49,491 bases of DNA from Acidimicrobiaceae bacterium (GTDB lineage Bacteria; Actinomycetota; Acidimicrobiia; Acidimicrobiales; RAAP-2). The stretch covers positions 1-49,491 of the forward strand of contig PMTF01000003.1 of assembly GCA_003167415.1 (NCBI GenBank), written 5' to 3'. A model generated the notes under the pieces. That model did not search any database, was not told the DNA's origin, and saw only the letters and a list, made by a program, of their open reading frames with translations. The position numbers were made by a program, and so were the translations under genes. Position 1 is the first letter of the stretch, and each line of letters starts with the position of its first letter. Below are positions 18,720 to 21,706 of the stretch, one piece after another.

Positions 18720-19030
18720 AGCACGAACTCGGCGAAGTCGTCGGCGATGATCGCCTCAAGCCCTTCGGCGTAGTCGAGGTCCAACTGCGTCAGAGCGTCC
18801 ACGTCGTGGGTCCATAACTCGAAGCGCACACGGCGGTATCCCAGCGTCACGTTGGGATGATGGTCGAGACCCTCGGCCAGTGTCACTTGCGCCTGCAGCA
18901 GCCGAACGCTGCTCGGGTAGTCCGTCGTCGCGACTTCACGCACGAGGTGCGAATCTTCTATGCGCCATGTTGAGTGTGACGTGATCCAGTTCTGCACGAC
19001 GGCGTCGTCGAGTCGATTCGGTGGCGTCAA
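18716..19030 (-). CDS. 4a-hydroxytetrahydrobiopterin dehydratase (PCD/DCoH)
   Basis: This 104-residue protein has the pterin carbinolamine dehydratase fold. The active-site motif [13 protein letters not shown] (56-68, with His57 and His58) is followed by [14 protein letters not shown] (His75). The enzyme dehydrates 4a-hydroxytetrahydropterin formed by aromatic amino acid hydroxylases; many bacteria lack such hydroxylases and carry it with an unclear role, sometimes linked to molybdopterin or folate chemistry. No hydroxylase is in the window. Its ATG overlaps the fumC stop by 4 nt, so it is the last gene of the nfo-fumC operon. Confidence 0.9.
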
Positions 19031-20415
19031 GGGTGGGTCATGTCTTCGGGCACCACGGCGGCATCGAACTCTTCAGCGCTGAGCAACCCCAAGGTGAGCA
19101 CCGCCTCGCGCAAGGTGGTCCCCTCGTGATGGGCCTTCTTGGCTACCTCGGCGGCTTTGTCGTAACCAATGGTTGGAGCCAGCGCGGTCACGAGCATCAA
19201 CGAGTCGTGCAGATGCTTTGCGATGCGCTCGACGTCGGGCTCGAGCCCCTCGATGCAGAACTCGCGGAACCTATTGCACGCGTCAGAGAGGAGATCGACC
19301 GAGTTGCAGAAATTATGAATGAGTACGGGCTTGCACACGTTCAGTTCCAGATTTCCGCGTGAGCCGGCCGCCGTAACGGCCACGTCATTGCCGAAGACCT
19401 GCACCGCGACCATGATCATCGCCTCGCACTGTGTGGGATTGACCTTGCCGGGCATGATGGAACTCCCGGGCTCGTTCTCGGGCAACTTCAATTCGCCGAG
19501 TCCCGAACGAGGGCCAGAGCCGAGCCAGCGGATGTCGTCGGCGATTTTTGCCAGGCTGGCCGCGAGCGTTCTGATCGCGCCGTGGGCGAAGACCAGTGCG
19601 TCGTGCGCGGCCAAGGCGGCGAAGTAGTTCGGCGCGGTGACGAAGGGTTTACCCGTCAACGCCGCGATCGCGACCGCCGCACGCTCACCGAATTCGGGAT
19701 GAGTATTGAGTCCGGTGCCCACGGCAGTACCGCCCGCAGCCAACTCACAGAGTCCGGACAGAACCAGGTCCAACCTCGCCAGGTCGGCATCGAGTTGGGC
19801 CACGTAGCCCGAGAACTCTTGGCCCAACGTGAGAGGCACCGCGTCCATCAAGTGCGTTCTTCCGATCTTGGTTATGCCGGCGAAGGCCTCCGACTTCACA
19901 TTGAAGGCGTCACGGAGATGAACAACCGAAGGTACGAGGCGGTCAGTGATCTCGAGGACCGCCGCGATGTGCATCGCCGTGGGGAACGTGTCGTTGGACG
20001 ACTGGGACATGTTGACGTGATCGTTGGGGTGAACGGGATCTTTACTACCCATCACGCCGCCGGACAACTCAATCGCTCGATTTGAAATGACTTCGTTCAC
20101 GTTCATGTTGGTCTGCGTACCGGAACCGGTCTGCCAGATTCGGAGGGGAAACTCGTCAGCGAGAACTCCGTCAATCACCTCGCGCGAAGCCTGCTCAATC
20201 AGCGATGCACGCTCGGAATCGAGCTTGCCCAAATCGTGATTCACCTGTGCCGAAGCGAACTTCAATATTCCGAATGCGCGTATTAATGCCGGAGGCATTG
20301 TTTCGTGTCCAATTGCAAAGTGATGAAGGCTTCGCTCGGTTTGAGCGCCCCAGTAGTGATTCGCCGGAACCTCAATCATGCCCATTGAGTCGGACTCCAC
20401 TCTCACATCACTCAT
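19027..20415 (-). CDS. fumC: Fumarate hydratase class II
   Basis: This 462-residue enzyme of the TCA cycle interconverts fumarate and malate. The three conserved blocks are present: [18 protein letters not shown] (97-114), [17 protein letters not shown] (185-201, with catalytic His188) and [11 protein letters not shown] (317-327, with catalytic Ser318). It is the iron-free, tetrameric class. I start at ATG 20415, directly after an AGAGG site; the frame extends to 20442 inside the upstream endonuclease gene, but that would have no ribosome-binding site. Only 10 nt separate it from nfo and 4 nt overlap with the dehydratase. Confidence 0.95.
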
Positions 20416-20425
20416 TGCAGCCTCT

Positions 20426-21706
20426 TTACCTTTTCTTGGCAAGCTTCTTGGCCTTCTTCGCGGGCGCCTTCTTGGCGGCGGCCTTCTTCGCCGGCTGCTT
20501 CTTTGCGGGCGTCTTCTTGGCGGCGGTCTTCTTCGCCGGCGACTTCTTTACGGGTGACTTCTTTACGGGTGACTTTTTGACGGCGGTCTTCTTCGCAGGC
20601 GACTTCTTTACGGGTAACTTTTTGACGGCGGTCTTCTTCGCGGACGTCTTTTTGGCGGGCGCCTTCTTGGTAGGTGATTTCTTCACAGCTGCCTTCTTGG
20701 CCGGCGCCTTCTTGGCGGCGGCCTTCTTCGCCGGTAACTTCTTCGCCGGCTTCTTCTTTGCGGGTGGTGTTGTAGCGGCTGGAGGCATGACAAGGACCAT
20801 CGCTTCGAGTTCAGCGGACACTTCACCGTCGTAGAGCTTGATCCCCTCAACGACAACCTTCCGAGCCGCGATGACATCTTCCCAACGAGGTCCCTCGCCT
20901 GTTCCGGGCACCTCGAGCAGCAATGGCAAGTCGCGGAAATCGGGATGTCCCACGAGTGCGGCTAGACCCATCGTGCCAATCGTCCCTTCGTCGATGTTGG
21001 CGTGACGATCCCGGTTGCCACCTAGTTCGATCTTGGAGTCGTTCAAATGGAAGCAACGAAGGCGTCCGAGGCCGATGTGCATATCGATCTCGTGCACGAG
21101 TTTGTTGGTGCCATGGGTGCTCGAATAATCGATTCCACTGGCCCATAGGTGTTGCGTGTCGATGCACAGACCAATCCGCTCGTCCCCCCCGGTGGCGTCG
21201 ATCAACGCCTGAATCTCATCGAGACTTCGTCCAACCGTGCCGCCGGTTCCGGCCGCGTTCTCGATCAGGATCGGACACTCTTCCACCCCGGGTGGCGCTG
21301 AGTCCGCTGCATCCAACGCGCGTTTGAACGCCTCGGCCATCTGCGGCAACGCCGTCTCGAATCCGCTGCCCTTGTGAGAGCCGACGTGCAAGACGACGCC
21401 CGATGAAGCCATGCCCCGACCCGTCGAGAGGTTGCTGATCAAGCAGGCGACCGAACGCTCGTAGAGCTCCTTGTCGGGAGTGGCCAAGTTGATCAAGTAC
21501 GTCGCGTGACAGAACGTGTGCGTGACACTCGGATGATTCGCCTGCGCCTCGCGGTACGCGGCGAGTACCTCGGGCGCGTACTGCGACGGTTTCCACATTC
21601 GAGGACTCTGCGTGAATATCTGAATCGACGTGGCGCCGATATCGACGCCCTCTTCTAGCGAAGGGATGAGCTTTCCACCCCCGCGGACATGTGCACCTAT
21701 GTTCAT
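20426..21706 (-). CDS. nfo: Endonuclease IV with C-terminal histone-H1-like lysine tail
   Basis: This 426-residue protein has residues 1-308 as an AP-endonuclease TIM barrel (AP_endonuc_2): HVGSHKGSG (107-115), [10 protein letters not shown] (147-156), [13 protein letters not shown] (179-191), CFHLNDSK (218-225), [12 protein letters not shown] (233-244) and [11 protein letters not shown] (263-273). Residues 316-426 are a disordered tail of about 22 near-perfect five-residue units, KK-x-P/A-A/V, ending KKLAKKR, like the tails of actinobacterial HupB or eukaryotic H1. Typical Nfo ends near 280-300 residues, so the tail is extra. The barrel would cut 5' of abasic sites; the tail probably adds non-specific DNA binding. 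The start is ATG 21706; an upstream frame to 21808 overlaps the divergent gene. Confidence 0.9.
20429..20761. repeat. 15-bp-period coding repeat (lysine tail of nfo)
   Basis: A run of about 22 degenerate 15-bp units on the plus strand reads as variations of cttcttggcggcgg and cttctttacgggtga. The units encode the KKxPA pentads of the endonuclease tail. Two adjacent units near 20545-20575 are almost identical. Such DNA can change copy number by slippage, so tail length may vary among strains. Confidence 0.75.

Follow-up and report, generated by a model that had tools for sequence, protein, structure and literature searches.

Lysine-repeat tails on actinobacterial proteins that act on DNA are already known. 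Lysine repeats have been described in topoisomerase I (TopA) and in Streptomyces HrdB, Ku and HupS (PMC7398561), and in topoisomerases, Ku and histone-like proteins, lysine-rich regions of low complexity are reported to take part in nonspecific DNA binding (PMC6821194). The repeats of TopA, which are degenerate and C-terminal, have been likened to histone H1 sequences and are described as stabilizing the enzyme on DNA; S. coelicolor TopA deprived of them still had high DNA affinity, with readier dissociation and a loss of processivity (PMC7398561). Mycobacterial HupB and Streptomyces HupS bear a PAKK/KAAK-type or lysine-repeat tail (PMC5676037, PMC11229371), and the HupB tail is described as indispensable for nucleoid association (PMC5676037). 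Mycobacterial and Streptomyces Ku is a DNA-repair protein with a lysine-rich C-terminus, and the lysine-rich domains of both Ku and HupB are reported to be required for DNA interaction (PMC7398561).

The locus described here adds a base-excision-repair enzyme, endonuclease IV (Nfo), to this short list. The gene lies in a stretch of 49,491 nucleotides, hereafter the window, from the genome of an Acidimicrobiaceae bacterium (contig PMTF01000003.1). Within the literature that could be searched, Nfo and the glutamine synthetase GlnII of the same genus are new carriers: no report of a lysine-repeat tail on a bacterial endonuclease IV or glutamine synthetase was found among the literature matches listed, most subscription journals being outside the coverage. 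The features of the locus are as follows.

19027..20415, minus strand: fumC (fumarase; Lyase_1 and FumaraseC_C), the next gene, with 10 nt from the nfo stop to its ATG
20426..20428, minus strand: TAA stop of nfo
20429..20785, minus strand: lysine-repeat tail, residues 308-426, net charge +48, predicted to be disordered (composition, pentads, pLDDT)
20453..20764, minus strand: tandem array of a 15-bp repeat encoding KKxxx units (Tandem Repeats Finder, 20.8 copies)
20786..20881, minus strand: helix and linker joining the barrel to the lysine repeats, residues 276-307 (AlphaFold2 helices 275-293 and 298-304; alignable among the nearest relatives)
20882..21700, minus strand: endonuclease IV (Nfo) catalytic barrel, residues 3-275 (TIGR00587, AP_endonuc_2, nine invariant positions)

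The nfo gene is a single open frame of 426 residues on the minus strand (20426-21706), running from an ATG at 21706 to the TAA, and the first-pass annotation had its coordinates right. The ORF list also gives a 460-aa version with a GTG start, which extends this frame upstream. The start MN[IV]GAHV was found in 28 of 33 aligned Nfo rows, which were trimmed to the match start, so that it marks a conserved methionine and not a mapped start. A 209-aa frame on the plus strand (20205-20834) is the F-rich complement of the repeat and was treated as spurious, and no RNA features were found in the window at the gathering threshold.

The N-terminal part of the protein is a complete Nfo barrel. TIGR00587 covers residues 3-275 with 216.6 bits (curated cut-off 129.65), Pfam AP_endonuc_2 matches at 1.9e-38, and four PRK01060 equivalog models also match, each below its own cut-off. 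Nine positions are invariant in 33 aligned sequences (H67, H107, E149, D183, H186, H220, D233, H235 and E265), and we take these to be the metal ligands of endonuclease IV. With its putative catalytic residues intact, the protein is probably an active endonuclease IV. Among canonical enzymes of known structure, the barrel matches 2x7v at 2.6e-41 and 1qtw at 1.9e-32; solved chains named endonuclease 4 or IV have 258-307 residues and are too short for such a tail. A complete barrel had been proposed from the start, with an extent of about 1-308; the first part of that proposal stands, but the barrel ends earlier, and a helix and linker fill the interval to about residue 307. In an AlphaFold2 model built on 33 sequences, the mean pLDDT was at least 83 in 26 of the first 28 ten-residue blocks and lay between 43 and 51 in the blocks of the tail from residue 321 on. 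The tail is thus predicted to be disordered, such low values being expected of disorder and not proof of it. Residues 1-307 are acidic (net charge -16, pI 5.2), and the whole protein is basic (pI 9.9).

The 119 residues of the tail comprise 47 K, 30 A, 17 P, a single R and no D or E, which bears out the earlier description of a highly charged extension. There are 20 strict KKxxx units followed by KK (KKxxxKK) and 23 KK-led pieces of any length, so that the original estimate of about 22 was a fair one. The lysine autocorrelation at a lag of five residues is 0.84, and this periodicity is therefore not due to chance. These are degenerate lysine-rich repeats at the terminus of a DNA-acting protein, as in the lysine-repeat (LR) tails described for other actinobacterial proteins, and the likeness to HupB-type tails noted at first pass was well seen. 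The differences lie in the proteins that bear the tails. Compared with TopA, the catalytic unit is Nfo, and the repeats are mostly strict pentads over about 110 residues. HupB and HupS are built on an HU domain, for which Nfo gave no match, its N-terminal part being Nfo itself. Ku serves end joining and Nfo base excision, and the two have different catalytic folds. In yeast Apn1 the C-terminus is extended by a basic segment that carries nuclear transport signals, a eukaryotic targeting role. Like Nfo, Apn1 is a member of the endonuclease IV family (PMC4666366).

A further likeness, to histone H1, had been suggested and holds for composition only. Pfam HC2 exceeds its cut-off of 40 with 44.3 bits, but the match comes from the tail alone, and the NCBIfam histone-like models all fall under their cut-offs: Burkholderia H1-like 49.2 (80), HC2 32.4 (135) and Rv3852 41.9 (100). 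Homology of the tail to histone H1 was therefore rejected.

To place the tail among its relatives we used 67 nfo loci found by a search of genome contigs, all titled metagenome-assembled genomes, some of which may lie outside the genus of the window. Six loci that were partial or broken at the match were dropped (L054, L062, L064, L065, L068 and L070); the C-termini of L062 and L065 carry lysine tails and were counted nowhere. Four more (L061, L063, L066 and L067) were dropped for want of the motif used for cutting the tail, and these have no lysine tail. This left 57 relatives and the window, or 58 rows, in which tail length was counted from 32 residues past the start of the LEVPG motif. In the four nearest relatives, with barrels 94-96% identical, the tail is in frame; one of them, L008, leaves its contig inside the tail. 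An assembly join or frameshift was ruled out, since separate metagenome assemblies show the same fusion. A tail encoded as a separate gene was looked for in close relatives with a negative result, in keeping with the single fused gene first proposed.

The fumarase gene is retained downstream as well. Of 55 relatives examined, 44 have the N-terminal motif of fumarase downstream of nfo, as do 20 of the 24 complete ones whose tails reach at least 40 residues; the motif is strict, so that the misses may be real fumC genes. Because fumC is kept downstream, we conclude that the end of nfo grew into a tail in a setting of conserved gene order.

Within the genus, both the enzyme and its tail are patchy. 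Nfo is present in 44 of the 61 sampled genomes, and 17 of 61 show no Nfo. The 44 proteins were read by script, except for one that was read by eye; tails of at least 40 residues are present in 19, of 15-39 residues in 10 and of fewer than 15 in the remaining 15. Since so many proteins have scarcely any tail and so many genomes lack the enzyme, both tail and enzyme are dispensable. The genome of the window has one Xth-type AP endonuclease (231.9 bits), whose open frame of 268 aa has no room for a long tail. Xth was matched in 59 of 61 genomes of the genus, 58 of them over the cut-off; because Xth is near-universal and Nfo is not, Nfo is the second, optional AP endonuclease.

Outside the genus, no lysine tail was seen in any of the 19 Nfo read in the class sample (among 27 class Nfo listed). 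One Nfo from the same order and another family, L089, has an Arg/Pro-rich C-terminal extension of about 40 residues. None of 60 further Nfo C-termini from the class and phylum had a lysine tail, the longest extension having 36 residues, of which 5 are R and none is K; these 60 were a targeted sample of the matches listed, taken from open frames of at least 340 and not comprising every such frame, and 11 of them (class picks) were below the family cut-off. The idea of the lysine tail as a general Nfo feature of the phylum was rejected on these 60 C-termini. Among the Nfo examined, the lysine tail is confined to the genus of the window and its relatives.

The best explanation of the tail, and one we consider fairly probable, is that it acts as a DNA tether. 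Nfo would then consist of an acidic barrel fused to an unstructured polycation, which would bind DNA mainly by its charge and without sequence preference. In this way the tail would hold this optional enzyme at or close to the chromosome, slow its dissociation and raise its effective concentration at AP sites. This reading is by analogy with the lysine repeats of actinobacterial TopA, Ku and HupB/HupS; we infer both the target, DNA, and the benefit, which would be longer residence or higher affinity. A DNA target had been proposed in the first-pass annotation and is retained as the best explanation, but as the sole target it is weakened by what was found on other proteins of the genus, namely a similar tail on GlnII and none on HU. 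The condensation of DNA and the lysine modification that were suggested alongside are speculative for this protein.

Other tails in the genome of the window were catalogued with two DNA patterns, a protein search having given 3 matches; the patterns miss repeats that contain Arg or are irregular. The DNA pattern for KKxxxKK gave 42 matches in the genome, 20 of them inside nfo, against 14 for a reversed-pattern control. Lysine repeats were found on TopA of the same genome, and an integrase-like C-terminus with lysine repeats was recognised by eye. A DksA-like protein (L004:1480-2490, plus strand) has a long N-terminal half rich in lysine and alanine, its best NCBIfam match being below the cut-off. 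A 438-aa frame (L002:1504-2817, minus strand) has KKAPARKAA repeats over about its last 55 residues and no Pfam or NCBIfam match outside its C-terminal part. At the end of contig C26 (L083), a lysine-repeat stretch of 17 residues runs off the contig. The single HU match in the genome of the window has no tail, and across the genus 28 HU C-termini were read, that of the window's genome among them, none with a lysine tail (L120 and L182-L210; 31 loci, 3 of them missed by the motif).

A further carrier is GlnII (L003:1525-2634, minus strand), which matches the NCBIfam GlnII equivalog with 579.7 bits (cut-off 500) over residues 5-335 of 370 and ends in a basic tail of the KKAPAKK type. We read 53 GlnII C-termini in the genus (L151-L180 and L342-L363), 51 of them complete, and for 22 C-termini only the last stretch was fetched; all 51 complete ones are basic, with at least 7 K+R, and G328 has an ambiguous base. 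The class sample held two more GlnII of the genus, one of which (L274) is Arg-rich, and no such tail was seen on the 26 GlnII read outside the genus. GlnII is a metabolic enzyme, so that such a tail need not mean DNA. Earlier eukaryotic analyses had found low-complexity regions to be depleted in metabolic proteins (PMC6821194). The occurrence of the tail on GlnII across a genus challenges the habit of taking such tails for DNA-binding, and it is the main fact against reading every one of them as a DNA tether: either the nucleoid holds GlnII as well, or such tails have an affinity for polyanions in general.

The second of these options leads to an alternative for Nfo that seems unlikely to us. 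The tail may bind polyanions generally, with DNA as one of several, or a polyanion other than DNA (RNA/ribosomes, polyphosphate, acidic partners), and one sorting device would be common to Nfo, GlnII, TopA and the DksA-like protein. The spread of lysine repeats over these proteins, the 438-aa frame and the integrase-like C-terminus of a single genome speaks for it, as does the contrast between GlnII inside and outside the genus. However, where the effect of a lysine-repeat tail has been measured, as covered in PMC7398561, it is exerted on DNA, and the GlnII tails are mostly shorter than that of Nfo (23-40 aa in 30 measured in full; about 69 in G099) and may have a cause of their own. A more specific version, which we hold to be rather unlikely, is that the genus uses a shared lysine-tail tag, moved to or regrown on Nfo, TopA, the DksA-like protein and GlnII, which would gather them at a single polyanionic site (the nucleoid, or for example polyphosphate), perhaps under a common lysine modification, while HU goes without the tail that serves nucleoid association in mycobacteria and Streptomyces.

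Another explanation is that slippage and repeat expansion lengthened a short Lys-rich C-terminus, the tail being in the main a tolerated and almost neutral by-product. The variation among relatives speaks for such an origin. Over the 58 rows, tail length ranges from 0 to 246 residues, with at least 40 in 30 rows, 5 of which are cut by contig ends. The variation in repeat number that had been expected between strains is seen here between species, with 20 strict pentads in the window, 16 in L005, 17 in L006 and 7 in L007. The units also differ between clades: KKxxx pentads in the clade of the window, TKATK-like units with periods of 6/15 in L017 and L026, a period of 4 in L024 and L030 and one of 11 in L009. 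In L027, L028 and L039 the C-terminus is no more than AKKK. Some tail lysines have decayed, as in AKE of L005 and VNK of L006. Against this, lysine codons stay lysine while the adjoining fourfold-degenerate sites vary. In the tail of the window, none of the 47 AAN codons ends in a pyrimidine, compared with 54% pyrimidines at its fourfold third bases, and in 30 tails 19 of 896 AAN codons do so (Asn), compared with 41%; both comparisons are nominal, as repeat units are copies of each other and the sites are not independent. Lysine also prevails over arginine across unlike repeat units, though the more distant relatives L055 and L056 have mixed Lys/Arg tails. In the 36 rows with tails of at least 20 residues, there are 917 K, 102 R and 43 D/E in the tails, compared with 296 K and 615 R in the barrels to which they are attached, and this in G+C-rich DNA (GC of the window, 0.63). 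Finally, the search of Nfo homologues for Lys-rich tails and their mapping on a tree, as the first-pass annotation had advised, showed that the long tail state clusters: on a maximum-likelihood tree of the barrels it needs at least 5 changes, 3 of them forced by well-supported branches, compared with a shuffled mean of 20.8. Taken as the main cause, slippage is quite improbable.

Least probable is a tail that is chiefly a regulatory surface for lysine acetylation or pupylation, setting activity or turnover and not tethering the enzyme, even though acetylation of HupS lowers its DNA binding (PMC11229371), mycobacterial HupB and Ku have acetylated lysine stretches, and Streptomyces TopA may be pupylated according to proteomics (PMC7398561).

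Returning to the DNA tether, the relatives offer a natural series on one barrel family (no tail, an AKKK tip, 15-39 residues, and 40-246 residues with several repeat types), which is a set for asking how much tail charge a repair enzyme needs. The predominance of lysine over arginine, the retained lysine codons and the lysine repeats on TopA of the same genome also speak for this reading, and the dispensability of tail and enzyme speaks against it. Across the 58 rows, tails are more basic where the barrels are more acidic (Spearman -0.57). The relation is modest in independent contrasts on 50 rows, from which open-ended rows, outgroups and L055/L056 were left out (-0.42, sign-flip p 0.006); of 49 contrasts, 27 had opposite signs, 18 the same sign and 4 were zero. 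This is suggestive of charge compensation and not proof of it.

Two minor observations concern individual relatives. Four loci from genomes titled Acidobacteria, Acidobacteriota or Microbacteriaceae (L026, L028, L049 and L065, the last partial and outside the tree) carry an Acidimicrobiaceae-like Nfo, and these are possibly mislabelled or contaminated metagenome bins. The longest Nfo tail, with 246 aa past the barrel (L009:3001-4623, plus strand), has a mixed-charge segment ahead of its lysine repeats, unlike the other tails compared.
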